From an uncultured Desulfuromonadales bacterium (GTDB taxonomy: Bacteria > Desulfobacterota > Desulfuromonadia > Desulfuromonadales > Geopsychrobacteraceae), in the NCBI GenBank assembly GCA_947259715.1, contig CAMYNR010000167.1, positions 37,282-75,855 on the forward strand: 38,574 bases of DNA. Reading direction: 5' to 3'. The translations under genes were made by a program, and so were the position numbers. The first letter of the stretch is position 1. Each line of letters starts with the position of its first letter. This document shows positions 10,012-31,368 of this stretch, in pieces. The notes under the pieces are model-generated. The model saw only the letters and a list, made by a program, of their open reading frames with translations. It did not search any database and was not told the origin of the DNA.

Positions 10012-11196
10012 TCAATAGTCACGATGACAACCGCGACAGAGTTCGCTTTTCCTTTTTTTGATCAACCGATATTCAAGATCTGAACTGTGCGCCGAATGGC
10101 AGGACATACAACTGATGCGGCCATCGGGCAGCAACGGATAGTCGTCGGGTATGATCATTCCCGCTTTCGGAAAGACATTGACAGGGTGCGAGTAGCCACC
10201 CTGAAAACTAGAATGGCATTTATAGCAGACCCGGTTATTGGTATCCAGCTGACTTTTCAGCAGCGGATGGCCGGTACCGGCGGCAGCAACCTGGCTGTCC
10301 TCCTCCACCTCTTTCGAAGCTGGCTCAGTCGGGCGCTCGACTCCCAGCGACAGAGATACCGGCCGATCCGTCTTGAAGATCAGAAGGTAGTTTTGCCCCT
10401 GGCGATAAGCTTCGCTGGTGAGCTGAATATCTTCAGCCTCCCCTCCCTGATATTCTCGCCGTTCCTGCTGCTCCAGGTAGGTCTTCTCAGTGCTGAAGCG
10501 GAAAACTTCAGAAAGAGAGCGATTCCCGAAGAGATCCATACTTGCCACCTGAAACCGGTATTCCCGGTTGGCATCCAGACCCATCAGGATCATCTCGTGA
10601 TTGCGGGTCAATCTTCCGTCAGAACTGGAGGAATCCATACCGTTGAGACCATAAAGCACTTCGGAGTCGCTGAACTCATCTGTCTGCCAGCGAATCGTGA
10701 CTGTGGTTGAAATCCCGCGTCGCACATCGGCGGCCCGGACCCTGGTGATGACCGGAGGCCGCGACTCGGGCTTTTTGCCTTCCAGGGTTGTCAAGGCTGG
10801 CAATGCAAGCGGCTGCAAAGGGGATCTTTCCCGCCCGTCCCAGGCCCTATAATAAAGCGAGCCAACCAGCTTTTCCGCCGGGATCAGGACCCAGTGCTCG
10901 GTAGCAAAACTCTGGTTCCCTTTGAGCCAGGACAGCTGACTCAACCTTTCTTGTTGCACGACTTTTAGCGGCATATTTTTCTTTGCGGCGCCCTGCTCTC
11001 CTACAACATGGCAGGTAGCGCAATTCCCCGAAAGAAATGGCGCATGGACATAACGTTTGGCCTTGCCAGCGTCAATTGCCGGCCGATGGCAACGACTGCA
11101 ATCCACGGCCGGAATTCCAACTGCAAAGACGAGGGATGTTGAACCCAGGCCGGAGATGAAAAACACCAACCAGGCAAACAAATATAGTCTTTTCAA
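10012..11196 (-). CDS. Secreted pentaheme c-type cytochrome with central fibronectin-III-like domain
   Basis: Signal peptide; 5 CXXCH (CSRCH, CATCH, CYKCH, CMSCH, CRGCH) arranged 2+3 around 'PPVITRVRAADVRRGISTTVTIRWQTDEFSDSEVLYG...LDANREYRFQVASMDLFGN'. Confidence 0.88.
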   Translation of the reverse strand: MKRLYLFAWLVFFISGLGSTSLVFAVGIPAVDCSRCHRPAIDAGKAKRYVHAPFLSGNCATCHVVGEQGAAKKNMPLKVVQQERLSQLSWLKGNQSFATEHWVLIPAEKLVGSLYYRAWDGRERSPLQPLALPALTTLEGKKPESRPPVITRVRAADVRRGISTTVTIRWQTDEFSDSEVLYGLNGMDSSSSDGRLTRNHEMILMGLDANREYRFQVASMDLFGNRSLSEVFRFSTEKTYLEQQERREYQGGEAEDIQLTSEAYRQGQNYLLIFKTDRPVSLSLGVERPTEPASKEVEEDSQVAAAGTGHPLLKSQLDTNNRVCYKCHSSFQGGYSHPVNVFPKAGMIIPDDYPLLPDGRISCMSCHSAHSSDLEYRLIKKRKSELCRGCHRDY

Positions 11197-11375: not shown

Positions 11376-12461
11376 TTATAGGCTGTTATCGCCATCCTTG
11401 GTGGTGTGACAACGGAAACATCCGGTATTTACAGCAGCACCAGTGGTGCCGGCTTCCATGCCAGCATAATCCCAGCGCAGCAGATCATCGTAAGGTGACC
11501 CGTGAGCGCGGTGGCAGGACACACAGGTGACGATCGCTTCGGCAGAGTAGTCGGCATTGGCAGCTGCGACCGGATTTGACAGGGCTACCGGTGCTTCAAC
11601 CGAGTAGCCACCAATGCCCAGGCCGTACTGCTGATACTCAGAAGAAGCAGGCAGAGCACGCATATCGATATCGGTCGGGTGGCGCAGCCAGGGGTTGCTC
11701 ATGTTGGTCGAAGGCAGCGCGTTGATCCCTTCAGCGGCGTGGAACTTACCGTGACACTCGGCACAAAGGTAGCTGATCGTGTCGGCCGAATCATTGCCCC
11801 CCTCGTTACGGGCAACGCCCTTGTAAACGTTGTGGTCGGTAGCGCTGTTGGTGAACTCCCAGTCTTCGTCCTCAACACCGACGATGCCGGAGAGGAAGCG
11901 GTAGCTCTTACCAACCGTAGAACCATCCAGGCCGTCAGAAGGCTCGTGGTGGGCACCCTGAACCGCGCCAAAAGTATCGAGCTCATCGTGATCCCCGTGG
12001 CAACCATAGGTCCCGGAACAGGACAGCTGCTGTGCCCAGGTGACGTCGTCGTTGACAGCGCCCGGATGGGTTTCGTCCCAACCCGGAGGGGTCTGACCAA
12101 GGGCCGCATCTGCAATGTTCAGCTCGTCAACATTGTGCCCTTTGGCATCATCGCCGTCGATAACCCACTTAAAAGAACCGCCTGCAGTGGTGTCAGTCCC
12201 ATAAACGGCTCCATCAACCTGAGGAATGACATTTGAGCCATTGTTGGTAATTGTAGCGCTGGCATGACAACCGGTGCAGTTGGCAGCGCGCAGCAATGCC
12301 GATGCAGGATCAGCGCTACCGTCCCAGCGCATAGGCTCGCCATTCTGGCTGTTATGCATGGTGTGACACTCAACACAGGGCGCCCCGGAAATGGCCGCCA
12401 GGGCATTGCCTGCGAACATGACCAGAGCCATACTCAGCAAAATAAACAGTCTTTTTTTCAT
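11376..12461 (-). CDS. OmcS-like extracellular multiheme cytochrome (5 CXXCH + 1 CX5CH)
   Basis: Signal peptide ending ALA; CVECHTMHNSQNG, CTGCH, CSGTYGCH (CX5CH), CAECHGKFH, VTCVSCHRAHGSPYDDLLRWDY, CFRCHTTKDG. Confidence 0.9.
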   Translation of the reverse strand: MKKRLFILLSMALVMFAGNALAAISGAPCVECHTMHNSQNGEPMRWDGSADPASALLRAANCTGCHASATITNNGSNVIPQVDGAVYGTDTTAGGSFKWVIDGDDAKGHNVDELNIADAALGQTPPGWDETHPGAVNDDVTWAQQLSCSGTYGCHGDHDELDTFGAVQGAHHEPSDGLDGSTVGKSYRFLSGIVGVEDEDWEFTNSATDHNVYKGVARNEGGNDSADTISYLCAECHGKFHAAEGINALPSTNMSNPWLRHPTDIDMRALPASSEYQQYGLGIGGYSVEAPVALSNPVAAANADYSAEAIVTCVSCHRAHGSPYDDLLRWDYAGMEAGTTGAAVNTGCFRCHTTKDGDNSL

Positions 12462-12616
12462 TTTAGCCTCCTAGCTTATCTCTTGACTGATTTCGTTTTT
12501 TGTCAGTTTAAAGCAATCAGTTGCCAACCAACGTTTTCATGCCCGCTCACCCGGGGAAGGATTTTATCCATCCTGGCATCAAAGGGTTCGCAGACGACCT
12601 TCCAGCAAATTCCAAA

Positions 12617-13750
12617 TCAAATGCCATCCTTGGTGGTATGGCAGGCAAAACAACCACAGGGCTCTGCCCCCGAATCTTCCACCCCGGCATTACAGTCGTT
12701 CTGGTAGTCCCAGCGCAGCATGTCAGGGTATGGCGAACCGTGAGCCCGGTGGCAGGAGATGCAGGTCACCAGATCTTCACCGGGAACCACATCACTGGTA
12801 ACAGTGCCATCAACAGTCTGCTTGGCGACCGGCGCCAATGGATTATAGGTGGTGTAACCGGAGTATTCCCGGTCCGGATCAGAGGGCAGGACCACATCCG
12901 AAGGATGGCGAATCCAGGTTCCGGCGGCCGAACGCATGCCGTCACCGGCGTTGGGACCATGGTGGAAGCGTGCATGACAGCCGGAGCACATCTCGCCGAT
13001 GCTGTTATTGGCCAGGGTGGTTGCCGTCTGATAGTTCTGGGTGGTGCCCTTGTAAACGTTGTGCTGGGTCGGGCTGGGGTCCTGTTCCCATTTGGGGTCC
13101 TCGACCCCGATCACGCCGTCGGCAGCCAGGTCCTGGAACATGGTATTGCCAAGAAAACGGTACCAACCATCACCTTCGCCGGTCACTCCCGCGACGCCAT
13201 CATCGGCGTGATGAGCCTTATTCGCCAAATGACAACCTTCGCAACCACCAGCGGCGGTTGAAAGAGTGAAATGGCAATTGTAGCAAGTGCTGCTGGTCGC
13301 CACAGGCCCTAAACCGCCGGGTGCGCCATCATCGCTGTGAGCAGCATCGATATCAGCGATACCGAAAACATTATGCCCGAAGGCATCGCCCTGAGAAGCG
13401 ACCCAGAAGAAGTTACCACCGGCCAGAACCGAGTTGCCCGACCCGTTGGCCGGGTATTGCAGACCGCCACCCGGGTTGTAAACCGAGGGAACCTGAGAAT
13501 CGCCGAGAGTGTAAATTGTCTCCGAACTGCCCGGGTTGGAATGGCAGCCGACACAGTCGGTTTTCAGCAGAGTCGGCATTGCGCTCTGCAACTCAACGCC
13601 GCGAAATTGCACCGGCTGGCCATTTTGGCTGTTGTGCATGGTGTGACAATTGACACAGTCACCCTTGACCGCCGCCCAGAGCGGATTTGTCAACAGCATG
13701 GCTAAACCGAACCCGGCCAGAGCCATAACTTTTAAACGCACGATATTCAT
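12617..13750 (-). CDS. OmcS-like extracellular multiheme cytochrome (7 CXXCH)
   Basis: Signal peptide, CVNCHTMHNSQNG, CVGCH, CYNCH, CEGCH, CSGCHARFHHG, VTCISCHRAHGSPYPDMLRWDY, CFACHTTKDG. Start set to the internal ATG preceded by GGAGGTAG. Confidence 0.9.
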   Translation of the reverse strand: MNIVRLKVMALAGFGLAMLLTNPLWAAVKGDCVNCHTMHNSQNGQPVQFRGVELQSAMPTLLKTDCVGCHSNPGSSETIYTLGDSQVPSVYNPGGGLQYPANGSGNSVLAGGNFFWVASQGDAFGHNVFGIADIDAAHSDDGAPGGLGPVATSSTCYNCHFTLSTAAGGCEGCHLANKAHHADDGVAGVTGEGDGWYRFLGNTMFQDLAADGVIGVEDPKWEQDPSPTQHNVYKGTTQNYQTATTLANNSIGEMCSGCHARFHHGPNAGDGMRSAAGTWIRHPSDVVLPSDPDREYSGYTTYNPLAPVAKQTVDGTVTSDVVPGEDLVTCISCHRAHGSPYPDMLRWDYQNDCNAGVEDSGAEPCGCFACHTTKDGI

Positions 13751-13764
13751 CCTAACTACCTCCG

Positions 13765-13787
13765 TATTGCCGCAGCCTGCAGCAATA
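13765..13787 (-). promoter_or_regulatory. Leader hairpin next to the Shine-Dalgarno of the 7-heme cytochrome
   Basis: Minus strand TATTGCTGCA-GGC-TGCGGCAATA: 10 bp stem with one G-U and a 3-nt loop, 1 nt from GGAGG. Confidence 0.6.
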
Positions 13788-13846
13788 TAGATAGACGTCA
13801 ACAGAACTCTTAATCAATTAATCTTTCAGGGTTCAGGGGGAAAATT

Positions 13847-13877
13847 GGCAGAATTAATAAATTTAAAAATTTCTGCC
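13847..13877. promoter_or_regulatory. AT-rich inverted repeat in the largest intergenic gap of the cytochrome cluster
   Basis: GGCAGAA-N17-TTCTGCC, 7 bp arms, in an AT-rich ~220-nt gap upstream of the 12617-13750 gene. Confidence 0.35.
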
Positions 13878-13973
13878 TTAACCTAATGAATCGTCAGGCA
13901 ATAATCAACCAAAAATAAATTAATTATTTTCTAATCCTGACTACTCAACTCATTAATTTTGTTATCTTTCCTT

Positions 13974-15371
13974 TCAATCCAGAAGAACAATAGCAGTTCC
14001 TTGACCAGCCAAGGGAACTGTTTTTCGCAAGAACTGCCCCGGCAGGTCGACGACCGACAGTTGCGGCTGACTCGCGCTTAACACATAAATGGCCTGGCGC
14101 AGTTGCGAAACCGCCATCTCGGAAGGCGAATCTCCGGCAGGGATTCTGCGAAATGAAGTCTCTTGCCCCGGCACCAGCACCGAGAGGGTAGCCCCGCGCT
14201 GATTGCTGACATACACTGCTTGCGGGCTGACCGCAAGCAGTTCGCTCGGCTTGAGTCCGACCGCAACCCGGGCCAAGAGCCTGCCGGTCTGATACTCATA
14301 ACTGGCGACAATATTGGCCGCCTGCTCAACCACCAACAATGAGCCTGCGGTGTAGAGCAGATCGCTCACCTGCTGACCGACTGGAAAGGTTTTCTGCACC
14401 GCTAGGGATCCAGCACTCAAGATACTGATCTGATGGGCTTTCGGCGCAACAACCGCCAGACGCTCAGGGACCTCCGGGATAAGGGCAATCTGCTCAGGTC
14501 GATAACCGACCCGCTGCTTGGCGAGGACCGATCCGGTCGCCAGATCGACTTTTAACACCAGACTGCTGACGGCGTCGGTGACATAGGCATTGCTTCGATC
14601 CGCGCTCAACACAAAGTGTTCCGGAGCGACTGTCCCCGGGAGCGCAATCTGCCCAATCAGCCTGGCTTTGATGCAATCATAAACAAAGATTGAGCGGTTG
14701 CCGGGGCTTAACACGTAAAGCTTGCGCAAGCGTGAATCAAGCTGTAAGTCACCGATCGGACCGGGCACAGCAAAGGAGGCGACAACTTTATTATGATCGG
14801 TCCGCAGCAGGTAGACCGTCGCCAGGTTCCGGCAGGCGATATAAGCCAGGCCGGTGCTCAACTGGATCCGCTGCGCCCAGGCAGAAAACCTCGGCCGGGC
14901 AAATGCGCCCTGGCCCCGCTGACTCTCCAGTGACCAGTCAACAAACAGACAGCGGCTCTGTTGGCTTTCCAGCAGCAAAGGCTCAGCCAAGCTCAGTTCA
15001 ACCATCTCGCTTCTGCCCTCGGGGGCCACCGGCAAGCCATCGATCGACAAATCCTTCAGCTGAAAACGTATCCGGCGATGTTCCCCTGTCGGCGCCAGGG
15101 CGACGCCAAGCAGCTGTTGCCCACGGCTTTTCTTTCCATCGACCTGGACCGGCGCAATCCCCAATTCGACCCAGACACCATCCTTTTGGACGGCAAGGTT
15201 TTCAAGTATAAAGCGCCCTCCACCAGAGGCTGTTCCAGAAGAGGAGAGGTAGACCGTCAGCAGGGCTTGCCCTTCGCTTGGGACAGGCTCATGCAGCGGT
15301 TGCAGCTGAGGTACTGAACAGTTGCAGAGCAGCAGAAAGCTCAGCATAAATATAAGTCTGGTCAATATCAT
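13974..15371 (-). CDS. Lipoprotein with DUF4382-like N-terminal region and YVTN-type beta-propeller
   Basis: Signal with candidate lipobox LLLCNC; C-terminal repeats such as 'KLYVLSPGNRSIFVYDCIKARLIGQIALPG', 'NAYVTDAVSSLVLKVDLATGSVLAKQRVGYRPEQIAL' and 'AVYVSNQRGATLSVL'. Confidence 0.78.
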   Translation of the reverse strand: MILTRLIFMLSFLLLCNCSVPQLQPLHEPVPSEGQALLTVYLSSSGTASGGGRFILENLAVQKDGVWVELGIAPVQVDGKKSRGQQLLGVALAPTGEHRRIRFQLKDLSIDGLPVAPEGRSEMVELSLAEPLLLESQQSRCLFVDWSLESQRGQGAFARPRFSAWAQRIQLSTGLAYIACRNLATVYLLRTDHNKVVASFAVPGPIGDLQLDSRLRKLYVLSPGNRSIFVYDCIKARLIGQIALPGTVAPEHFVLSADRSNAYVTDAVSSLVLKVDLATGSVLAKQRVGYRPEQIALIPEVPERLAVVAPKAHQISILSAGSLAVQKTFPVGQQVSDLLYTAGSLLVVEQAANIVASYEYQTGRLLARVAVGLKPSELLAVSPQAVYVSNQRGATLSVLVPGQETSFRRIPAGDSPSEMAVSQLRQAIYVLSASQPQLSVVDLPGQFLRKTVPLAGQGTAIVLLD

Positions 15372-15410
15372 AATTCCCTTTACAGGAGCCTCCACAGTCT
15401 GCACCCGCGG

Positions 15411-16781
15411 CTAGAACGTCCTGCGAACGCCCCCTTCTGGTGCCGGTATCCGTTTGCCGTTCGGCAAGATTCCCGGGTTCTCGGCGTCGACATAGCTGCC
15501 ATGCCCATGGCAATAGCCGCAGCCGATCGCCTGCACCTCGCCAGCTACGTCATGACAGCGAACACATTGCGTGCTGTCGCCCGGCGGATAGGGTCGATCC
15601 GCGGCGCTATGGTGCACGGTCTCCCAGCGATTGATCTGCTGGCTGTTGCCGCTCCCCGCGCTTGCAGCATCATCAGCATGGCACTGTCGACAGAGGTAGC
15701 CCAAGGAGGTCGATCCGCTGCCCGCACTGACCTTGCCCCGCAAAGCCGAACCATTCACGCCGCGGCGAATCAGGCGGGCATTCTGCGACCCATGCGGCTC
15801 GTGACAATCGCTGCAGGCCAACAGATAATCGACAAACTGATGACGCGGATCGTCATATGGGGCGACCGCTTGCAAACTTTGAGTAAAGGCATTCATGCCA
15901 TGCTTATCACCTGAAAAGGGGGAATCGCCCCCCTGGGCCGCCCAATCAACCCGCACCACCGACCTTGCCAGGGTCGTCGAGTAAACCGGCTCTGCGTGGC
16001 AACGCAGACAGAAGCTGTTGTAATCCGGAAGTTGCGAACCATCCGCGAAAGCGACCTGAACGCCACCCGGCTCATAGCCGCCGGATAGACCGGCCGACAG
16101 GGGAGGCTGATAGCGACCAGCATATCTGGCCATGGTTTCCTCGGCCTGGTCACCCCAGAGTTCATCCGGCTCATCCGGTAATGAGATGGCACTGAATTCA
16201 GGGTTTGCCACATGGGCGCGGTTGCGTCTGGCACGATGGGAGTTGTGGCAGGCGCTGCAAGGTGATGAATCCTGGCCAAACCCCGGAAAACGCTGGGCAT
16301 AATTCCAGATGTCATAAAGATTATGGTAGGAACTCTCCAGGCCACCAGCCGGCTGATTGAAGGCATCCAAAATCGACAGCGGTCCACCGGTCGTCAATCC
16401 ACCAAAATTGCGCGAATAGTCAAAATTGCCCATCGCAGCGGCTCCTGCCTGAAGAGAACCGACCGAGGTATGGCAGGAAAAGCAGAACAGGTCATCCTGC
16501 TGATAGGGACCAAGCTGGCGCTGCCGGTTGAAGTTAACCGCATACAGTGAAGTCCCTTCGGCTTGTCCAATAGATCTGGCCAGCGCTTTGTCATGGCAGT
16601 GGCCACAGCTGCCGGTGGCTCGAGGCGCACTGCGCTGCCCGGTCTGATCGAGACGCCTGACCCCGAACTGCGGATCGCCGTGGGCCGAGTCCCGGTAAGA
16701 TCCGGCCTGCAGACTGCTCAGCGGAGCTGTTATGGCAATCAGCAGCAGACTGATGATAAGGCCGTTGATGGATTTCCTCAT
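15411..16781 (-). CDS. Secreted octaheme c-type cytochrome
   Basis: Signal peptide; 8 CXXCH (CGHCH, CFSCH, CSACH, CLRCH, CSDCH, CRQCH, CVRCH, CGYCH). Confidence 0.9.
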   Translation of the reverse strand: MRKSINGLIISLLLIAITAPLSSLQAGSYRDSAHGDPQFGVRRLDQTGQRSAPRATGSCGHCHDKALARSIGQAEGTSLYAVNFNRQRQLGPYQQDDLFCFSCHTSVGSLQAGAAAMGNFDYSRNFGGLTTGGPLSILDAFNQPAGGLESSYHNLYDIWNYAQRFPGFGQDSSPCSACHNSHRARRNRAHVANPEFSAISLPDEPDELWGDQAEETMARYAGRYQPPLSAGLSGGYEPGGVQVAFADGSQLPDYNSFCLRCHAEPVYSTTLARSVVRVDWAAQGGDSPFSGDKHGMNAFTQSLQAVAPYDDPRHQFVDYLLACSDCHEPHGSQNARLIRRGVNGSALRGKVSAGSGSTSLGYLCRQCHADDAASAGSGNSQQINRWETVHHSAADRPYPPGDSTQCVRCHDVAGEVQAIGCGYCHGHGSYVDAENPGILPNGKRIPAPEGGVRRTF

Positions 16782-16784
16782 CGG

Positions 16785-17852
16785 CTAGTCCTTACTGGTA
16801 TGGCAGGCAGTGCAGCCATCGTTGCTGTTGAGATAATCCCAGCGCAGCAGCTTGTCGTAGGGGCTGCCGTGGCTGCGATGGCAGCTGACGCAGGTGACGA
16901 TCGTATCTCCCTGAAAACTGACCTGGACAAGGGGATTACTGACCACCGTGCTGGCGACCGGCACATCGACCCGATAACTCTGATTCGGCCCGCCGTAGCC
17001 ACGGACCTCATCCCCCGGGGCGGCATTGCCCAGATCGTATTCAACCGGGTGGCCGAACCAGTTGCCGGCCCCGCCGCTGTGGAAATCGTTGTGGCAACGC
17101 ATGCAGAGCGAGCTGATGGTCGAATTATCCATGCTTTGATCGACCCCTTTGTACTGGTTGTGAGCGGTCAAAGTCGGCGTTAATTCCCATTCCGGATCTT
17201 CAAACCCGGCAACCCCGATCAGCATGCGAAATCCTTTGGCGGGGACAGTGCCCGGATCGGTCAGGGCGCCATCCAAACCTTTATGATGGCCGCCAAAGAT
17301 CGCCGAAGCGGGGCTTTCTTTGCTGTGGGTACCATGGCAGCCATACACCCCGGCGCAGGTGACCTGCTGATTGACCGGCCAGTTCCCGTTCCCCGGGGTG
17401 CTGCCATCCGCCGCCGACAGGCTGCCGTTAAAACCGGGCGGCAAAGTTAAAAAGGGATCAGTACTGGCCAGGCCAGTGACATTATGCCCCTTGAGTGGGT
17501 CACCACTGGCCACCCAGTAAAAGTTTCCACCGGCCAGGGTATTGGTATTCTCTTCGGTTCCGGTGGCGGCATAGATCGGGGCGGTAGTTGACATGACGAA
17601 GGGGGTTTCCCCGCCCGCGTTGACGCCGGTATGACAACCGATGCAATCGGTATTCAGCAGGGCGTCATAGGGCCCCTGATCGCCCCATTCCTGCATCGCC
17701 TGGCCATCCTGACTGTAATGCATCGTGTGGCAACTGATGCACTTGCCGGTCACCGCCGCTTGCACCTGCGGCACTGCCAACAGCAATCCGACAACGGTAC
17801 AGAGGGACACGATTGCTTGCAGGAGATCTCGGATAGATCGGTATTCAGCCAA
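16785..17852 (-). CDS. OmcS-like extracellular multiheme cytochrome (5 CXXCH + 1 CX5CH)
   Basis: Signal peptide ending VQA; CISCHTMHYSQDG, CIGCH, CAGVYGCH (CX5CH), CMRCHNDFH, VTCVSCHRSHGSPYDKLLRWDY, CTACHTSKD; same layout as the 11376-12461 gene. Confidence 0.9.
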   Translation of the reverse strand: MAEYRSIRDLLQAIVSLCTVVGLLLAVPQVQAAVTGKCISCHTMHYSQDGQAMQEWGDQGPYDALLNTDCIGCHTGVNAGGETPFVMSTTAPIYAATGTEENTNTLAGGNFYWVASGDPLKGHNVTGLASTDPFLTLPPGFNGSLSAADGSTPGNGNWPVNQQVTCAGVYGCHGTHSKESPASAIFGGHHKGLDGALTDPGTVPAKGFRMLIGVAGFEDPEWELTPTLTAHNQYKGVDQSMDNSTISSLCMRCHNDFHSGGAGNWFGHPVEYDLGNAAPGDEVRGYGGPNQSYRVDVPVASTVVSNPLVQVSFQGDTIVTCVSCHRSHGSPYDKLLRWDYLNSNDGCTACHTSKD

Positions 17853-17878: not shown

Positions 17879-18772
17879 TCAGCGGGAGAAAATTTCGACC
17901 CGCCCGCTGCCTTCATCGACCACGCAGAGTCGCTCCTGCCAGTCAAAGAGTAAATCCGCACCATTCCACAGCTGGCCGGGCCGCTTGCCTTTGCCAAGAA
18001 AGGAGAACTTCTTCTCTCCATTGCGAGAAAAAACAACAACTGTCCCGGCATGCCGGTCAAGCAGATAGAATTGGCCGGATCGATCGACTTCCAGTGCAGA
18101 CGGAAACTCCAGGCCGGTAAGCTTGATCCGCTTTTCGACCTTGCCGGACAGGTCCAGCTGGAACACGCTGCTGGTCAAGGTATCCAGGCCCCAGAGTCGG
18201 TCATCACCAAGTTTAAAATCGGTAAAACCCTTGAAACCGGCATCGCCGGAAAAGCTTTGCACAACCTTGAGGTTGTCATCCAGCCGCACCACCTGCCCCT
18301 TCAGCCGGTCAAGGCCATAGAGCCGGTTGCGGCTGTCGACAGCTAACCTGGAGAGGAAAAGTTTACTGCCATCGGCATGCCGGGGGGTAAAGCGGCGGAC
18401 CTCCTTTTCACGTGGATTGATATAAAGCAGCTCATTGCTGGACCGCTCAACCACCCAGAGGCTACCGGTACCGGTGCGCACCATGGCCACCGGTCTCTTC
18501 AGCTGCCCTCCGGCGGTAAAGGCGCTGAGAAACTTACCCTCCTGATCAAAGGACACCAGTTGCCCGGCGGCGGCGTCAACCACGTAGTAGCGTTTGACCT
18601 GAGCATCGACCGCCACTGCCACCGGCTGTTCGAGACGCACGCCGGAGTCTTTCTGCGGCAGCTGGCGTAACGAAGACCAGGATCCCCCGGCCGCCAGAAC
18701 CAGCTCACTCCCGCCGAGCAGGGCGAAAAAAACCCCCAGGCTCAGCGCCATTTTTATCGAGTACATGTTCAT
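17879..18772 (-). CDS. Secreted NHL-repeat beta-propeller protein
   Basis: Signal peptide; repeats 'QPVAVAVDAQVKRYYVVDAAAGQLVSFDQEGKFLSAF', 'FPSALEVDRSGQFYLLDRHAGTVVVFSRNGEKKFSFLGKG'. Start set to the internal ATG after AGGAGA. Confidence 0.82.
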   Translation of the reverse strand: MNMYSIKMALSLGVFFALLGGSELVLAAGGSWSSLRQLPQKDSGVRLEQPVAVAVDAQVKRYYVVDAAAGQLVSFDQEGKFLSAFTAGGQLKRPVAMVRTGTGSLWVVERSSNELLYINPREKEVRRFTPRHADGSKLFLSRLAVDSRNRLYGLDRLKGQVVRLDDNLKVVQSFSGDAGFKGFTDFKLGDDRLWGLDTLTSSVFQLDLSGKVEKRIKLTGLEFPSALEVDRSGQFYLLDRHAGTVVVFSRNGEKKFSFLGKGKRPGQLWNGADLLFDWQERLCVVDEGSGRVEIFSR

Positions 18773-18788
18773 TCTCCTGAACCTTTTC

Positions 18789-19958
18789 TCAGTAACTCTG
18801 ATGACACTGCACGCAAAGCCCGCGCTCACCGCTGCCATGGAGGAAATATTTATACATGGTCCCCGAGTTGGCGTCATGGCAGGTCAGACAGTCAACCTCC
18901 CGGCCGTTACGGGGGTCGATCACCCCCTCGCCCTGGGGATGGGTAAATTCCCCATGCAGGTCATGACAGCGAGCGCAGACATTCTGCCCATCGATTAACA
19001 TGGCCGGGTTGTCTCCGCCGTGCCCATAGTGACAATTGGAGCAGCTGCTCCAGTCCTGATGCTTGTGCAGCATCTTGTCGCGTTTGGCAAAGGTATCTTC
19101 ATGGCAGCCACGACAGACCGCACCTTCATTGGTCGGCAGCAGACCGGGCCGGTCACCCACATGGGGGTTATGGCAGAGGGTGCAACTGTTTTCCGCCCCA
19201 CCGACACCGAGATGGCTGTGGACCTTATTGAAGCTGTCGAGGGTCTGCTGGTGACAATCAAGGCAGAGGTTACTGCCGCCCTGCCCGGCATGACACGCCT
19301 GACAGTTCTTCTCGGCAAACGGGGCATGGCTGACCGCCCGCAGCAGCACCGCATCGGAGCCGCCATGGGGGTTGTGGCAGCCGAGGCAGTCGAGCGGTTG
19401 CAGATTGCGCCCCAGATGAGCGGACTGCAGAGCCTGACTCGGCTGATGACACTCGAAACAAAGGGCACTGCCGGAGTTTTTCAGCAGCCGGTAATCATCG
19501 CCGGCATGGGCGCTGTGACAGGCATTGCACTTGCCCTGCTGATAAGGTTTATGCGCGACCTTAAAGGTCTGCTGAGAGGACTCATGACAGCCATAGCAAA
19601 GATCGGCGCCGCTGGCTTTTAACAACCCAGAGTTGCCCGATGCATGGGGCTCATGGCATTCGCTGCAGCGGCCATCCTTGACCGGCTGATGGGGCACGGC
19701 ACTCGCCTTGACCCGCTGTTCCACCGATTGATGGCAGGAGTAACAAAGCTGTTCTTCCTTGTCCAGCAGCAGGCCGGCGTGTCTTGAGACATGCGGGCTA
19801 TGGCAGCGGTCGCACTGCTGACCGGCGACCGGCTGATGCACCACCCGCCCCTTGAACTTGGCAGCGTCGTGGCACTGGTAACAATCTTTAGCCAGGACCG
19901 TCAGCGGCAGACTGAGCAGCGCCAGGGTCATGAAGAGATATCGGATCATAGGCATCAC
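18789..19958 (-). CDS. 16-heme paired-CXXCH c-type cytochrome
   Basis: 16 CXXCH motifs counted in 389 aa, in repeating H-x-P...CxxCHxPH...LL...LCxxCH units; signal peptide. Confidence 0.93.
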   Translation of the reverse strand: MMPMIRYLFMTLALLSLPLTVLAKDCYQCHDAAKFKGRVVHQPVAGQQCDRCHSPHVSRHAGLLLDKEEQLCYSCHQSVEQRVKASAVPHQPVKDGRCSECHEPHASGNSGLLKASGADLCYGCHESSQQTFKVAHKPYQQGKCNACHSAHAGDDYRLLKNSGSALCFECHQPSQALQSAHLGRNLQPLDCLGCHNPHGGSDAVLLRAVSHAPFAEKNCQACHAGQGGSNLCLDCHQQTLDSFNKVHSHLGVGGAENSCTLCHNPHVGDRPGLLPTNEGAVCRGCHEDTFAKRDKMLHKHQDWSSCSNCHYGHGGDNPAMLIDGQNVCARCHDLHGEFTHPQGEGVIDPRNGREVDCLTCHDANSGTMYKYFLHGSGERGLCVQCHQSY

Positions 19959-21931
19959 TGACCTCCCGGATGACAGGGAGTGCAGTTCCCATTGGCAAAA
20001 GGTTCATGTTTGACCGGCAGGGTCAGAGACGCATCCGGTCCGCCGTGGGGGTCATGACAGCTAAGGCAGCTGTCCGCAGACGGCAGCAGATTGTTGTGCG
20101 CCAGAGTCAAGGCATTTGGGCTGATATCGTGGCAATCGCCGCAGAGTTTTGCATCAGCCTGCTTCGCCCGGCTTTTTTGCGGAGCGTGAGGATCGTGGCA
20201 AGCCTGGCAGTTGCCCTCGATGGCCGGTTGATGGCCTTTGCCTTTGTCCCAATAGCGATCGACCTCATGACAGCTCAGACAGAGCTGCGGCCGTTCCTGC
20301 AGCAGGTAGGCGGGCTCGTCGTTGCCATGGGCATAATGGCAGACCGCACAGTTCTGATGCGCCGTTGGGGTGCCCGGCTGAACCTTTTGCGGGGCATGAC
20401 AGCTGACACAGAGTTCGCCGGCGGCGCCGGTCAGCAAAAACGGCTGCTCACTGCCATGGGGATAATGGCAGAGCTGGCAGCGCCCCTGCTTGAAGGGCTG
20501 ATGTCGATTCGGTTGCTGACGCTCGGTTTCAATAGTGCCATGACAGCTGCCGCAATTCTCGGCCCCGCTCTTGATCAGCAGTTTGGCCTGATCGGAGCCG
20601 TGCGGGTTATGGCAAGCGGAACAGCTGCCAGCGACGAAGGGACGGTGCAGGCTGGGCTGCACCAGGGTCTCGCCGACCAACTCATGGCAGTCGGCACAGA
20701 GCAGCCGTTGCTGCTGCTTGAGGATCCCGGCATGCAGGCTCTCGTGGGGCAAATGACAGCTCAGGCAATCGCCGGCACTGGCCGGCTGATGCTTGACCCG
20801 TTGACGCTTGGCATAATCAGCATGACAGTCTAGGCAGAGCTGGTTGCCAGGCTTTCGCAGCAGCGCCGTCTGTCCAGCAGCAGGCAGATGAGGCGCATGG
20901 CAAACCAGGCAATCCCCTTTTTCGGCGGGGGCATGCTGATGACCGGAACCTTCTGCCGGGGCCTCGGGACCAAAGCTCTTGAATTGATGACAATCAAAGC
21001 AGAGCTGCTGCGGCAGCTTTTTCAACATTCCGGAATGATTGCTGGCATGCACCTGGTGACAGCTGGTGCATTCTCCGTTGGTTGCCGGGGCATGGGCTCC
21101 GCTGGCAGCATAGCTTTTCAGCTCGGCCGCATGGCAATCGACACAGAGTTGATCAGCGCTGGCATTGACTGCAAAGGGTTGTCCACTGGCGGCCGGCTGA
21201 TGACACTCCTGACACTGCCGATTTGCCACCGGCTGATGAACGGTATTTTTCAGCAGCTGCTGATTATCGGCCGAGTGAACATTGTGGCATTCGCTGCAGG
21301 ACGACTTGACCCCATAACCGCCATGCTGGCGGACAAAGGCTTGATTGTCGATTTGATGGCAATCCTGGCAGAGTTCGGTCTCTGCTTTGATCAGCAGCTT
21401 GGTCACGCTTGAGCCATGGGTTGCATGACAGGTGGCACAGCCCTTCTCCAATGGCGCATGCTTGAATGCCTGATTGAACGGTGCGCGCTCATGGCAGGCA
21501 AAGCAGCTCTCGTCCCGCTCAGCAGAGAGCAGATACTTTTCCGGGGCGTTATGCGGCTGATGACAGAGGTTGCATTCGCCCTGCTTGACCGGTGGGTGGA
21601 TTTCCGTCGCTGCTTTAAGCTCTGCGGCCAGTTCGGTATGACAGAAAAAGCAGATATTCGGCACCGGCGCTTTCAGGTAGGCTCCGCCAACCAGGCCGTG
21701 CTTGCGATGACAGCCGGCACAATCACCTTTGGCCACCGGCTGATGGACCACACCGGCAGAAAACTTTTCCTGATATTCGTTATGGCAATCCAGGCAGGAT
21801 TTGCCGCCTTTGGTTGGCGGGGCGCCAGGCGCGCAGGCACTCAGCAGGACAACCACGAGGACTGCAGCAGCTGCCAGCAGCCCGCTGTGAAATACTTTCC
21901 ATTTATGATTCATTGCCTGTTTCTTCCTCAT
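19955..21931 (-). CDS. 26-heme paired-CXXCH c-type cytochrome lipoprotein
   Basis: 26 CXXCH motifs counted in 658 aa; lipobox LLSAC; repeated 'H(Q/A)PxxxGxCxxCHxPH...LLxxxxxxLCxxCH' units. Alternative start 21913. Confidence 0.93.
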   Translation of the reverse strand: MRKKQAMNHKWKVFHSGLLAAAAVLVVVLLSACAPGAPPTKGGKSCLDCHNEYQEKFSAGVVHQPVAKGDCAGCHRKHGLVGGAYLKAPVPNICFFCHTELAAELKAATEIHPPVKQGECNLCHQPHNAPEKYLLSAERDESCFACHERAPFNQAFKHAPLEKGCATCHATHGSSVTKLLIKAETELCQDCHQIDNQAFVRQHGGYGVKSSCSECHNVHSADNQQLLKNTVHQPVANRQCQECHQPAASGQPFAVNASADQLCVDCHAAELKSYAASGAHAPATNGECTSCHQVHASNHSGMLKKLPQQLCFDCHQFKSFGPEAPAEGSGHQHAPAEKGDCLVCHAPHLPAAGQTALLRKPGNQLCLDCHADYAKRQRVKHQPASAGDCLSCHLPHESLHAGILKQQQRLLCADCHELVGETLVQPSLHRPFVAGSCSACHNPHGSDQAKLLIKSGAENCGSCHGTIETERQQPNRHQPFKQGRCQLCHYPHGSEQPFLLTGAAGELCVSCHAPQKVQPGTPTAHQNCAVCHYAHGNDEPAYLLQERPQLCLSCHEVDRYWDKGKGHQPAIEGNCQACHDPHAPQKSRAKQADAKLCGDCHDISPNALTLAHNNLLPSADSCLSCHDPHGGPDASLTLPVKHEPFANGNCTPCHPGGQ

Positions 21932-23546
21932 GCAATTCCTGGTTCAGCTTTTTCCATACTGAACGATTCAGCTTAATGGTAGAACGATCTCGCAACTGCT
22001 TAACCAACCCTGCGCGCTGCTCCTGAAAACGATCCGCCTGCAATTGATTCTTGATCTGCCCCTTGACCTTCTCCAGGGGAGCGACCTCAGGTTCTCCCTT
22101 GCGGACCAGTTTGATAAACAACAGGTTGTCGCCATCCTTCACTCCGGCACTGACCTGTCCGGCGGAGAGCTTCCTGACCTCGGCCTGAACGACCGGCTGC
22201 AAATGCGCCAGGGGAGTTTTCTCAATTTGAATTCCAGCAGGGGAGATCGGCTCCATGACTTTAAAGAAATCTTCCCCCGATTTAATCCGTTTTTCCAGTT
22301 GTCTGGCCAGCTTCAACTCATTGGTTTTGACGACTGCTAATTCCACCATTCCCTGCCGTGAGTACTTATCCTGATGCTGCCGGTAATAGGCTTCGATATC
22401 GGCATCGCTCACCTCAACCTGTGGCTGGATCACCAGAGCTTCCAATTCTTTGATAAGGCGATGCTGAGAATAGAACTGAAAGGTGTGCTTGAGGGGCGGC
22501 TCTTCTTCATACCGCCTGGCCAGAGCTTCCATGCCGGTCAGGGTCTGAACCAGCAGATCGTTGACAATCCGCTGTTTTGCGTCCTCAAAATTTTCAGCGG
22601 ATTTAGTGGAATGACTGCGTTTTTTCCGTGATTTGACCACAGCTTCATAAATAAAGCCGGCGGGAACTTCCGTTTTGCCGATGATCACGGCTTGCTTGGA
22701 TTTAAGTTCATCATCTATGCCATCTGGTTGAATTGCGGCGATAACTTCATCATTGACCTGAACATTGTAATCAGCTTTAAGCTTTTCCAGCAGCTGGTAG
22801 GTCAGCTCGTATTCCTGCTGCTTTAAGGAGTCGCGGATCAGTTTCTGTTTGATGATTTCAAAGTCCGCCTCATTCCCCTCGCCCCGATCAAGGACCTCAA
22901 TGAAATACCAGGAATGGCCGAAGCTGGCCGGGCCTCCCGCTTCACCAGGTTTTAAGCTCATGGCCAGGGGTTGCAAGGATTCAGGAATCCGGGTGTAGCG
23001 CATTGGGCCGGTCGCCTCCATCTGCTCAACAACTCCCTGAAGGCCAGCTGTTTCGACGACCTGATCCAGTGGGGTGCCCTGGTCCATGTATTTCTTGATT
23101 TCCTGCGCCTGCTCTTCGTCAGTGACCGCCAGCATGCGCAGATTCAGGATCGGGGTGTAGCCCTCTTTGTACAGCTGCCAGAGTTCATCCCGGGTTGGTA
23201 TGGTTTTGCGCGCATCGACCTCTTCCCCCTTCAATTGCATCAGGGCCCGGACTTTCAAAAAGACCTCAAGCTTTTTCCGGTAGCTGGGGCTGTCCTGCAA
23301 CTGCATATCTCTGGCCTCCTGGGCCAGCAGCATCCAGTCGATGAATTCATCAGGGGATTCCTGTAAATTCATACCCGGTTCGCGCCATTCGCGCCACCAG
23401 TGCCGATAATCTTCCGGGGTAAACTCTACCCCATTGATGGTAACCAGCTCTTTGCCGCCAAACAATGCAGAAGCGTTGTCGACAGAGCTCAGCAGAACCA
23501 GCAAGGTGAACAAGCTGAAACAAATCGTTTTGATCTTTATTGACAC
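21903..23546 (-). CDS. Secreted parvulin-type (PpiC/SurA-like) peptidyl-prolyl isomerase with two modules
   Basis: Signal peptide, SurA-like N-terminal helical region, parvulin-like segments around 'ILNLRMLAVTDEEQAQEIKKYMDQGTPLDQV...FGHSWYFIEVLDR' and 'MVELAVVKTNELKLARQLEKRIKSGEDFFKV...GDNLLFIKLVRK'. Confidence 0.8.
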   Translation of the reverse strand: MSIKIKTICFSLFTLLVLLSSVDNASALFGGKELVTINGVEFTPEDYRHWWREWREPGMNLQESPDEFIDWMLLAQEARDMQLQDSPSYRKKLEVFLKVRALMQLKGEEVDARKTIPTRDELWQLYKEGYTPILNLRMLAVTDEEQAQEIKKYMDQGTPLDQVVETAGLQGVVEQMEATGPMRYTRIPESLQPLAMSLKPGEAGGPASFGHSWYFIEVLDRGEGNEADFEIIKQKLIRDSLKQQEYELTYQLLEKLKADYNVQVNDEVIAAIQPDGIDDELKSKQAVIIGKTEVPAGFIYEAVVKSRKKRSHSTKSAENFEDAKQRIVNDLLVQTLTGMEALARRYEEEPPLKHTFQFYSQHRLIKELEALVIQPQVEVSDADIEAYYRQHQDKYSRQGMVELAVVKTNELKLARQLEKRIKSGEDFFKVMEPISPAGIQIEKTPLAHLQPVVQAEVRKLSAGQVSAGVKDGDNLLFIKLVRKGEPEVAPLEKVKGQIKNQLQADRFQEQRAGLVKQLRDRSTIKLNRSVWKKLNQELHEEETGNES

Positions 23547-24121
23547 TTAGCAACTCCCTTTTCAATCCAGTCGGTAATAATTTCTTGAGACATCCTGGCC
23601 ATCAGGCCAGTTATGGTTGTCACATTTCCAAAATGCATCGCTCTGCGATACTCATCTCCCCAGCGATGATGCAAACTCTGCAGGACCAGTTGGCCGCGCC
23701 GCACATCATAAAGTTTCAGCTGCATGGCGACAACCGGCACCGCGCCCGGACCCCGGCCAAGGTCCATGCCGACCTCGGTCAGTCGGCCTTGAACCACTGC
23801 ATCGATCTGCAGCTTTTCCTGCAGGTCGGCATAGTGAAAAGATTCCAGCAGATCGCCTGGCAGCAAGCGGTGCCGGAGCCGGAACAGACTGACGTTCCCT
23901 TCCGGTTGCACCTCAAAGCGGCCTGAGTTAACCAGGGCGCCATGAAAAATTCGCTGGCCGGTCACACCGGCCTGGTCCGCGCGGGTCCAGTTGTCGAAGG
24001 GCAGCACCGCGACCCGGCAGACGCTTTCCGGCTCTGCGTTCGCCATCACCCGGGTCTGCAAAGCCCCCTGCCCGGCGCAGCCGGTCAGCAGGAGGAAAAG
24101 AAAAATAGCAAAGCTTCGCAT
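23537..24121 (-). CDS. CsgG/GNA1162/LpoB-like lipoprotein
   Basis: Lipobox LLTGC; 'CRVAVLPFDNWTRADQAGVTGQRIFHGALVNSGRFEV...QIDAVVQGRLTEVG...MQLKLYDVRRGQLVLQSLHHRWGDEY'. Confidence 0.68.
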   Translation of the reverse strand: MRSFAIFLFLLLTGCAGQGALQTRVMANAEPESVCRVAVLPFDNWTRADQAGVTGQRIFHGALVNSGRFEVQPEGNVSLFRLRHRLLPGDLLESFHYADLQEKLQIDAVVQGRLTEVGMDLGRGPGAVPVVAMQLKLYDVRRGQLVLQSLHHRWGDEYRRAMHFGNVTTITGLMARMSQEIITDWIEKGVAKCQ

Positions 24122-25614
24122 CAGAAATCCGGCACCCAGGACTCGGCCTCTTGCTCTTCGACGGCCTGCTGTTCAACTTTCATCAACAATTCTTTACGGG
24201 CAATCCGGCGGCGGTTCCCAAGTTCGTCAACCCCGTCGAAGCTCAAGTAAACGGCATTCTCATCGCCAAGCGGTTTAAACTCTGTTTCTGTCGGCAGTCG
24301 CTCCCCGTCAACCTGTAGCAGGATCTTTCCCTGGCCCGATTTCAGCTGCGCCTGCCAACTGCGCAAAGAGAACTCGGCGCTGACCTCATTGAGACTGAGA
24401 AAATACTTGCCAGCGCGCTGACTGACCCGCGCTTCAACCAGCGGCGCGTTGCGCTGCATGACGACTTGCCGGGTAGCGCTGGAGCGGTTTCCGGCCAGAT
24501 CCCAGACCTGCAGGGTAATCTCGTAGGGACCATCGGCCAGATAAAAACCGTCAGCGCCATGCCCTTCCCAGACCAATCGCTCCGGCATGTCGCCTTCATA
24601 TTCGTTACTGACCAGCAGCAGGCCGTCCTCGTTGCGAATCTCCAGGCCCCAGCGCCCCATCGGCTTTAAGTCGGCGATCCGGGGCAACAGCAGCAAGCTG
24701 TCGCGGAACACCCGACGACCATCGATCTGCTGACCATTCTTCAGTTCGATGGTCAACCCGGGCGGATTATTGATCACCTGGTATGAGGCGATGTTTTCCA
24801 CCCGCTCGGCGAAGCGACCGCTGCCCCACTCGAGGATTAAATCGATCGGATACTGCCCTTCCTGCTCCGGAGCAAACCACTTCCCGGAATAGATACCGGT
24901 GCGCGGATTGGCCTGCAGCAGACTGCGTCCCGCTTTGCTCTCAGCGAAAATCCGGGTTGGCCGGGCATCGAGAAAGCGGATCTTCAGAGTCGCGTCGATC
25001 TGCTGGCGCCCCTTGACATAGGCAGGAAACAGCTGCATGCCGGTCAGCTGGTAATCGCGCCGGTCAGGCACCCCTGTCTCTGCCACCTGCCCCTCCAGGC
25101 GGAGCAGTAATTGGTCCAAAAGGGGGCCGGACAGATCATCGATGGTCTGCGGCTGTCCCAAGGCCAGGAAAGTCACCTTCTCAGCTAAGCTGGTGGCCCC
25201 GGTCTCTGACCAGATCGGCATTCCGGTGACCGTATCCAGAGCGGTAAAGGTCAGCCCCAGCTGTGGATTGTCGCCACCGATTTCAGTGATAGTGCCCAGC
25301 AGGGCGACGACACAGCTCAGGTCTTTACCGATCTTCTTAATCAGAAAGCTGTCCAGGTAGCTGAAAGAGCGCAGCTTATTGGCGCTCATGAACTTGACCA
25401 CCTGGTCCTGAGGCACCATCTCCACCCCGAGCCGCTGGAGGGAGTTGGCGACAACCTGGGTGAATGGCAGATTGATCCCATTCACCCCTTGGCTGAAGTC
25501 AGCCATCGGCAGCAGCGCGACCCGCTGGGCCTGGGCGGGAGCATTTGCCAGACCGAGCAGCAGAATCGAGCAGACAGCGAAATGCAGTGCTATGCGCTTA
25601 ACAGCAATCAGCAA
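24121..25614 (-). CDS. Secreted protein with CsgG-like N-terminal domain and C-terminal beta-rich (FlgD/Ig-like) region
   Basis: Signal peptide; 'RVALLPMADFSQGVNGINLPFTQVVANSLQRLGVEMVPQDQV...CVVALLGTITEIGG...FTALDTVTGMPIWSETGATSL', then beta-rich segment with 'DGPYEITLQVWDLAGNRSSATRQVVM'. Confidence 0.68.
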   Translation of the reverse strand: MLIAVKRIALHFAVCSILLLGLANAPAQAQRVALLPMADFSQGVNGINLPFTQVVANSLQRLGVEMVPQDQVVKFMSANKLRSFSYLDSFLIKKIGKDLSCVVALLGTITEIGGDNPQLGLTFTALDTVTGMPIWSETGATSLAEKVTFLALGQPQTIDDLSGPLLDQLLLRLEGQVAETGVPDRRDYQLTGMQLFPAYVKGRQQIDATLKIRFLDARPTRIFAESKAGRSLLQANPRTGIYSGKWFAPEQEGQYPIDLILEWGSGRFAERVENIASYQVINNPPGLTIELKNGQQIDGRRVFRDSLLLLPRIADLKPMGRWGLEIRNEDGLLLVSNEYEGDMPERLVWEGHGADGFYLADGPYEITLQVWDLAGNRSSATRQVVMQRNAPLVEARVSQRAGKYFLSLNEVSAEFSLRSWQAQLKSGQGKILLQVDGERLPTETEFKPLGDENAVYLSFDGVDELGNRRRIARKELLMKVEQQAVEEQEAESWVPDF

Positions 25615-25617
25615 CGC

Positions 25618-26190
25618 CTACTCCTCGATGGTCCCCAGCAGCCGCTGAGCGAGTCGATAACTCACCTGGTTGATATCTGCGCCGACAAAGCCGAACATGC
25701 GGTTAAAGGTGCTGTAGCCGGTTTCGCTTCCGGAACTCTGCCAGATAATCTGACCGGTTTTCACATCGATCAGGCGCAAGGTGGCGGCGACCACCGGATA
25801 GCTGTAATTGCCATTCTGCCGCTCACTGAAATCCTCCACCGCACCGGCGATATAGGCCTGGACGCTGAGTTCCTGGCCGAGCCGCTGCGCAGTGGCGAGA
25901 TCGAGGGTTTCCTGATCCTTACGCACCAGTTCTTCGCGCAGAAAGCGTTGCGCCTCGCCCTTCTCCACCACCTCAAAGAGACCGCGGCGGAGAATTTCCG
26001 TGGTCACCGCATCCTGAAACCGCTCATGAGCAAAGGTTTCGTCGGTGTGGTTTTCCAGCGGCAGAACCACTACCCGCTTTACGTAGCCTAGCCCCAGAGT
26101 CTCTGCGGCATAATGCGCCGGACCGGACCGGGCGCAGCCGGCAATGCCCAAGGTCAGGAGCAGCAAAAGTAAGACCAGGTATCTTTGCAT
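25618..26190 (-). CDS. CsgG/GNA1162/LpoB-like lipoprotein
   Basis: Lipobox-like LGIAGC; 'VKRVVVLPLENHTDETFAHERFQDAVTTEILRRGLFEVVEK...VQAYIAGAVEDFSE...ATLRLIDVKTGQIIWQSSGSETGYS'. Confidence 0.7.
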   Translation of the reverse strand: MQRYLVLLLLLLTLGIAGCARSGPAHYAAETLGLGYVKRVVVLPLENHTDETFAHERFQDAVTTEILRRGLFEVVEKGEAQRFLREELVRKDQETLDLATAQRLGQELSVQAYIAGAVEDFSERQNGNYSYPVVAATLRLIDVKTGQIIWQSSGSETGYSTFNRMFGFVGADINQVSYRLAQRLLGTIEE

Positions 26191-26276
26191 GTCATTCACC
26201 CTCTTTCCAACAAGATTTATCCGCTTTAGCGTACTCTTGGTTCTCGTCACTCATATCTCTCAAAACGCCCCGGCTC

Positions 26277-28472: not shown

Positions 28473-29267
28473 TCAGTTCACCAGATTGTGCGGGCCAATA
28501 TGGCAATGGATGCACTGCGGGTAGGTTTCATGCAGTTCGTCAAAATGCGGCTGTCCATGACAGGTACGACATTTGGGAATGACCTTGTGCTGAAACTTGT
28601 GGCAATACACACAATTGAACTGGTGGTGTTTGGTCCGATTCTCCGAAAGCAGCACCGCCGGCCCGGGATGACAGGAGGCGCAGAAAGAAACCGGCACATT
28701 GTTGTCGTAGGCCACCTTCAGCGGCATGTGCGGACGGTGGCACTCAAGACAGTTGGCATAGCTCTGTGAATCCTGGTGCGGCTCGTGGCATTCCAGGCAG
28801 GTCAGAAATTGACCATGCTGCTGATGGCACTCCTTGCTGTCGAGCACCGAATGATTGCTCGGATAATTCAACAACTCCTGCCCCTGGTTGGGGTGACAGG
28901 TCATACAGGCAGGTCGAACCTGCGAAGCCCTGGCGAAATCGATATTCAACGGGCTGTGCGGCCGATGGCAGTTCAGACAATCCGGCGAACTGAAATGGGG
29001 ATTGCCGCCTGACTCATGGCACAGAGAGCACTCGGGGATGGCGTTGGCGCCCCGCGGCGGATGCTCCTGATGGCAATCAGTACAGCCGATGGCATCGCGG
29101 TGCTGTCCGCCAGCGGCCTCGATCTCGGCGATCTGACTGCTATGGCACTTTTGGCAGTCACTTGGCAGCAATTCCGGCGCGGCAGCAGCGCTCGCCACCG
29201 CTCCGGCAGCAAAAGGCAGCAGCACCAGTGAGACAAGCAGAGAGCTGGTTATGAAAAAGCTTTTCAT
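28473..29267 (-). CDS. Secreted 11-heme c-type cytochrome (plus one SXXCH variant motif)
   Basis: Signal peptide MKSFFITSSLLVSLVLLPFAAGAVASA; 11 CXXCH counted; extra S-K-E-C-H in register. Start set to the internal Met of the 28473..29354 ORF. Confidence 0.9.
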   Translation of the reverse strand: MKSFFITSSLLVSLVLLPFAAGAVASAAAAPELLPSDCQKCHSSQIAEIEAAGGQHRDAIGCTDCHQEHPPRGANAIPECSLCHESGGNPHFSSPDCLNCHRPHSPLNIDFARASQVRPACMTCHPNQGQELLNYPSNHSVLDSKECHQQHGQFLTCLECHEPHQDSQSYANCLECHRPHMPLKVAYDNNVPVSFCASCHPGPAVLLSENRTKHHQFNCVYCHKFQHKVIPKCRTCHGQPHFDELHETYPQCIHCHIGPHNLVN

Positions 29268-29289
29268 CCTCGTTGACCTTTTCCCACGG

Positions 29290-31191: not shown

Positions 31192-31368
31192 CTCCCCCCA
31201 GTTTTTTCTCTGCAGATTTGAGATCATTCCGGCAAAACCCAATCCAGTTTGAAACGCGGCAATTACTTACCAGGACAGCTGTGGAGGCAAAGATACACCT
31301 TTAAAGCCGGGCATTATTACACCATGCTGGCATACCTTTTGGTTTTTTCCCCTCAATAGAGCAGACCC

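Follow-up and report, generated by a model that had tools for sequence, protein, structure and literature searches.

OmcS-family cytochromes with a candidate C-X5-CH heme attachment site encoded at a Desulfuromonadales locus

In the structure of OmcS, the wire-forming multiheme cytochrome of Geobacter sulfurreducens, all 12 axial heme ligands are histidines, of which 11 are supplied by the chain that holds the hemes, and the neighbouring subunit gives the remaining one, at heme 5 (PMC6584659). OmcS-like paralogs encoded beside genes for a 16-heme cytochrome, a 26-heme cytochrome, a peptidyl-prolyl isomerase (PPIase) and a propeller protein are already a known kind (OmcS, OmcT and GSU2501; PMC12977616, PMC5539420, PMC10553843), and a passage of PMC12977616 that cites Shen 2025 connects the maturation and secretion of OmcS with a block of similar make-up that lies next to omcS in Geobacter. 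Here we analyse a stretch of 38,574 nucleotides (the window) from an uncultured Desulfuromonadales bacterium of the Geopsychrobacteraceae (contig CAMYNR010000167.1, positions 37,282 to 75,855). The minus strand of the window holds three open reading frames (ORFs) for OmcS homologues, P1, P2 and P3, with the ends given in an earlier note on this DNA. The three paralogs noticed there are real, but such paralogs beside this gene block had been described before. What the note overlooked is that the third heme site is altered: five CxxCH motifs and one C-X5-CH (CX5CH) are present in each of P1 and P3, and P2 has seven CxxCH motifs. Judging from sequence, we think it fairly probable that CX5CH truly attaches c-type heme, as a motif not described before, at one heme-stack position in a large, multi-phylum clade of OmcS-like nanowire subunits, which CxxCH counts misread as five-heme proteins.

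We propose that all three proteins are multiheme cytochromes of the OmcS family that the cell secretes and that most likely build extracellular heme-stack filaments, or else a short stack at the surface. They would be made and connected by the outer-membrane and periplasmic block around their genes, which comprises the 26-heme and 16-heme cytochromes, a PpiC isomerase, a propeller, an LpoB/CsgG-like lipoprotein and a barrel. The third stack heme of P1 and P3 would be attached through CX5CH, keeping six hemes in each, and P2 would carry seven, one extra. The histidine of an HTMH motif near each N terminus would be the best candidate ligand for joining adjacent subunits, like His16 in OmcS. For this explanation as a whole (OmcS-family subunits, a third heme on CX5CH and His16-type joining) we estimate a probability of about 0.5.

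P1 is encoded at 11376–12461 as a precursor of 361 residues, preceded by the ribosome site AGGAGG; it bears CVECHTMHNSQNG and has CVECHTMHNS at its mature N terminus. The ORF of P2 (12617–13801) bears CVNCHTMHNSQNG, and its start is probably ATG 13750, which is preceded by GGAGG, rather than TTG 13801, giving a gene at 12617–13750. P3 (16785–17852) bears CISCHTMHYSQDG and adjoins an NHL gene, an arrangement shared by most related loci. Identity is ~40–43% among the three proteins and 26–30% between them and OmcS. In all three, the motif CxxCHTMH(N/Y)SQ(N/D)G stands within a few residues of the mature N terminus, as the earlier note had reported, and by eye the first motif likely lies ~6–7 residues past the signal-peptide cleavage site. 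The order of further shared elements given there fits P1 and P2; P3 departs from it slightly, with FRML in place of YRFL, FGHP in place of (I/L)RHP and CHRSHGSPY in place of CHRAHGSPY. P1 and P3 contain exactly 12 cysteines each, all of them used by six C-Xn-CH sites. P2 has 16 cysteines; two of these, C328 and C340 (mature chain, near the C terminus), fall in no CxxCH and could form a disulfide pair.

Homology to OmcS was borne out along nearly the whole chain. P1 alone matched OmcS in a phmmer search of the PDB (E = 3e-4), and a profile of 85 family members matched it (6ef8/6nef) with E = 1.6e-26, profile positions 5–307 aligning with OmcS 7–350 from the first to the fifth heme site. OmcS was the only full-length PDB match of this profile; the remaining PDB matches were partial and were to nitrite reductases. 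Five of the six CxxCH motifs of OmcS are kept in the family alignment. Its six non-motif candidate ligand histidines are conserved at five places: for each of His16, H110, H247, H257 and H335, at least 95% of the aligned rows of the family retain the equivalent. At the sixth place, that of H147, the histidine is replaced by, or merged with, CX5CH.

The His16 equivalent, which the earlier note had said was retained, is a histidine in 121 of the 125 aligned family rows. CxxCHTMH occurs at the first motif in 117/130 family members, P1, P2 and P3 included, and a histidine stands at that place in 124/130. None of the 1996 CxxCH motifs borne by other multiheme ORFs of the family's loci has this string, and we rejected a chance origin on this comparison. 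The looser CxxCHxxH is common (807/1996 CxxCH sites of those ORFs), and therefore the histidine alone proves little; the specific part is the HTMH tetrapeptide. We take OmcS His16 to be the ligand given to heme 5 of the neighbour, an assignment that we did not find stated in papers on OmcS. The family has eight conserved non-motif histidines, two beyond the need of six hemes, so histidine bookkeeping forces no inter-subunit bond, and we rejected such counting as proof of inter-subunit ligation. Homology and the specific HTMH motif together make polymerization of P1–P3 and an inter-subunit bond plausible. A Foldseek search of the PDB with the AlphaFold2 (AF2) model gave no match; with OmcS as the query, Foldseek and DALI are reported to find only close homologues (PMC9473688), and we took the result as evidence neither for nor against a shared fold. 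The role of OmcS wires in respiration is itself disputed (PMC11077965).

P1–P3 might instead be non-polymerizing monomers in the extracellular space or at the outer surface, serving as terminal reductases or as partners of a barrel conduit, with the HTMH histidine ligating a heme of its own chain. Of the four G. sulfurreducens homologues, OmcS alone has a known wire (PMC12977616). CxxCHxxH, at the frequency given above, is by itself no sign of polymerization, and the two surplus histidines fit ligation within one chain. We nevertheless regard monomers as unlikely, because CxxCHTMH is specific to the family, OmcS as the closest solved relative polymerizes, and the locus has its counterpart next to omcS (PMC12977616).

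CX5CH stands in P1 and P3 where the third CxxCH is expected. In P1 the motif (CSGTYGCH, followed by G) lies at 11997–12020 on the minus strand, precursor residues 148–155, and aligns with the heme-3 site C140–H147 of OmcS; in P3 it lies at 17334–17357 on the same strand (CAGVYGCH, again followed by G; precursor residues 166–173). Across 92 aligned rows, taken from homologues in GTDB genomes plus relatives, the consensus at this site is C-[ASG]-G-x-x-G-C-H-G. The first cysteine, the glycine before the second cysteine, the second cysteine, the histidine and the following glycine are invariant in 92/92 rows, the last of these being part of the rule by which rows were selected; the other inner glycine is present in 90/92. 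A tree of 132 rows placed the CX5CH rows, with P1 and P3, in one group of 88 rows (support 94), and this clade spans Desulfobacterota, Nitrospirota and Aquificota. The nearest upstream cysteine lies at n = 5 for 94/829 CH sites in the family, and for none of the 2148 CH sites counted in the 163 multiheme ORFs of these loci that lie outside the family.

The sister sequences of P2 type carry, in the same region, a first C-Xn-CH and then a CxxCH, which an invariant HH closely follows. The spacing of the first motif varies among these relatives (n = 2 in 18 rows, 3 in 6, 4 in 6, 5 in 1 and 6 in 1), and the cysteine and histidine of CH remain adjacent throughout, whatever the spacing. A locus labelled L089 has CX5CH (CGGVNACH) inside a small clade whose other members bear CX3CH and CX4CH. 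In the MAFFT alignment, CX5CH has its CH opposite that of the second motif in P2-type proteins, and either P2 motif could correspond. Three further P2-type rows have a single CxxCH in that region. In L095, L096 and L099 (5744–6658), one canonical CxxCH precedes the HH pair, hence six canonical sites; these proteins are possible intermediates between OmcS-type and CX5CH forms.

Since the motif at the third heme site runs from CX2CH to CX6CH among relatives of P2, a heme is most likely attached at CX5CH. Heme sites of the form CX4CH are established in cytochromes c3. A nanowire heme held on a longer loop is seen in OmcZ, with 14 residues between the cysteines (PMC9473688). Other features of the alignment and the model count against a heme at CX5CH. 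The profile alignment puts the CX5CH histidine on the non-motif H147 of OmcS and not on the proximal H144, and most CX5CH members are without OmcS H147 as a post-motif histidine. The AF2 model of P1 (single chain, no heme; mean predicted local distance difference test score, pLDDT, 77.7) sets the cysteines of CX5CH in a beta-hairpin that is predicted with confidence (strands 124–127 and 131–134; block pLDDT 91–92), unlike most canonical CxxCH sites, which are short helical turns. The AF2 model of P2 (mean pLDDT 63) is too poor to use beyond its two tandem CxxCH being helical.

These features would also fit a disulfide between the CX5C cysteines that closes the hairpin, with the next histidine as a distal ligand (the OmcS H147 equivalent), heme 3 lost and P1 and P3 being five-heme proteins. 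The alignment that pairs CAGxxGCHG with OmcS CSSCHDPHG and drops the histidine on H147 is gapless, and the loop glycines are nearly invariant, as in a tight turn. This is the main rival to a heme at CX5CH, but we hold it to be rather doubtful. Against it stand the adjacency of C and H, which is kept while the spacing in relatives ranges from n = 2 to 6, and the CX5CH of L089 amid CX3CH and CX4CH forms. A lost heme would also leave a gap in the stack, yet all other heme sites and the eight non-motif histidines are kept. We also looked for a dedicated heme lyase for CX5CH and saw no sign of one: three Cytochrom_C_asm genes are present in the window's genome, and three also in each of two genomes (G039 and G049) where we found no member of the family, although such counts do not exclude one.

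P1, P2 and P3 each cluster with their own orthologues in the tree (99 for the P1 clade); therefore the paralogs are old and separately maintained, and the divergence of the three remarked on in the earlier note predates the genus. OmcS-type rows form their own side of the tree with support 100, and P1–P3 fall on the other. An OmcS orthologue proper would have six CxxCH motifs and group with OmcS; P1, P2 and P3 do neither. Genes of the true OmcS type, accompanied by a similar cluster that is their own, were found in Malonomonas rubra (G004) and in two further genomes (G041 and G054), but no OmcS-type match was found in the window's genome (77% complete) or in the relative G003 (99% complete). 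By hand count, strong family matches (E below 1e-60) occur in ~34/396 sampled genomes of the phylum.

Several loci elsewhere drew attention in their own right. In Nitrospirota metagenome-assembled genomes (MAGs; L070, L076, L073 and L040), three or four OmcS-family genes stand in tandem per locus, nearly all with CX5CH, which is a paralog expansion outside Desulfobacterota. A stretch of 20168 bases (L083) has four OmcS-family genes on both strands, with NHL-type genes interspersed. Orthologues of P1 and P2 are also borne by L025 (JADFVC010000113.1, G005:C9), from the MAG 'Chloroflexi bacterium isolate C2.bin.19', which is ranked in the window's genus; its public name looks wrong, or its bin mixed.

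All neighbouring genes considered here lie on the minus strand. The range 11376–17852 treated in the earlier note also spans two unrelated genes, both between P2 and P3: a beta-propeller-like lipoprotein (13974–15404) and a cytochrome with eight CxxCH (15411–16781), the latter conserved in the locus. Beyond P3 stand the four core genes of the known operon (PMC5539420), encoding an NHL/six-bladed propeller protein (17879–18877), a 16-heme cytochrome (18789–19958), a 26-heme cytochrome (19955–21931) that equals GSU2495 in size and heme number (PMC12977616, PMC5539420), and a secreted PpiC-type PPIase (21903–23546; PF13145). Side by side at 17879–23546, these genes correspond to the SEEP-SRB1/omcS-associated conduit operon. 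They are followed by a small secreted protein or lipoprotein (23537–24121) and a secreted protein with a weak Ig-like match (24121–25614), both conserved in the locus, an LpoB/CsgG-like outer-membrane lipoprotein (25618–26250; PF13036, PF03783) and an outer-membrane beta-barrel protein that is a candidate pore (26323–28422; weak matches to PF13505 and NF041027). Further on are a cytochrome with 11 CxxCH (28473–29354), whose relatives beside true OmcS genes have 12, and a single polypeptide that combines an NHL propeller, a SPOR domain and two C-terminal CxxCH (29290–31242), possibly a peptidoglycan-bound electron-transfer adaptor. On the other flank, a five-heme cytochrome (10012–11196) is split by its fibronectin/PAP-N-like domain and recurs behind P1 orthologues.

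The order barrel, LpoB/CsgG-like lipoprotein, two secreted proteins, PPIase, 26-heme cytochrome, 16-heme cytochrome, NHL protein, CX5CH OmcS-like cytochrome, 8-heme cytochrome and lipoprotein recurs across dozens of loci, with Desulfobulbaceae contributing many, and the tail of P2, P1 and fibronectin-type (fn3) cytochrome is also present in M. rubra. A division of labour in which P3 supplies the main wire, with P1 and P2 making up a mixed filament or one whose base or tip is distinct, would suit the recurrence of P2–P1 followed by the fn3 cytochrome in relatives, the P3 orthologues being those fixed beside NHL, and the three separate and old orthologue groups, but it is improbable given the many genomes with only a P3-type gene in the locus and the description of solved cytochrome wires as homopolymers (PMC11936953).

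If CX5CH binds heme, as we favour, covalent heme motifs span a wider range than is now accepted, and a five-residue spacer must be tolerated by the standard machinery of maturation. A CxxCH word search would then drop one heme per protein of a widespread candidate nanowire clade. Murali 2023, in the part of PMC10553843 that describes how cytochromes were gathered, used such a word search, which undercounts the CX5CH site. If CX5CH binds no heme, an OmcS-like stack with a gap has been retained, which bears on electron passage along such wires. A cultured carrier of these genes exists in Malonomonas rubra DSM 5091. The CX5CH spacing is apparently unreported so far: we found no report of CX5CH or CXXXXXCH in the open-access literature, a search that left subscription journals mostly outside its scope and in which other spellings of the motif were unsearchable.

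Comparison with known systems places the window's proteins as follows. The OmcZ filament is like P1 and P3 in holding one heme, heme 1, on a motif longer than CxxCH; it differs in having no homology to them, in the position of its longer loop at the subunit interface and in finding all its histidine ligands within the subunit (PMC9473688). The SEEP-SRB1 operon of Skennerton 2017, in the passages of PMC5539420 that treat it, has the same four core genes and the same neighbourhood as the window. The OetABI/OmcS-like/OmcX cassette of Murali 2023 contains OmcS-like cytochromes proposed as nanowires in the corresponding passages of PMC10553843. Those passages of both papers carry no remark on CX5CH. 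The Geobacter OmcS paralogs OmcT, OmcJ and GSU2501 are likewise omcS-family genes beside a secretion and conduit block with a 26-heme cytochrome, and are reported as hexahemes, unlike the window's proteins (PMC12977616). OmcS-type genes of Malonomonas relatives form a clade separate from P1–P3, and both kinds coexist in one genome. OmcS of G. sulfurreducens (6ef8, 6nef) has six CxxCH, whereas P1 and P3 have CX5CH at the third site and P2, with CYNCH...CEGCH in place of the one motif of OmcS, has a doubled CxxCH there; the window's family also has an extra invariant HH and a conserved HN histidine, and is without CHxPHG. In motif order, the N-terminal HTMH, the CHRAH block and the terminal CxxCH, P1–P3 are like OmcS.

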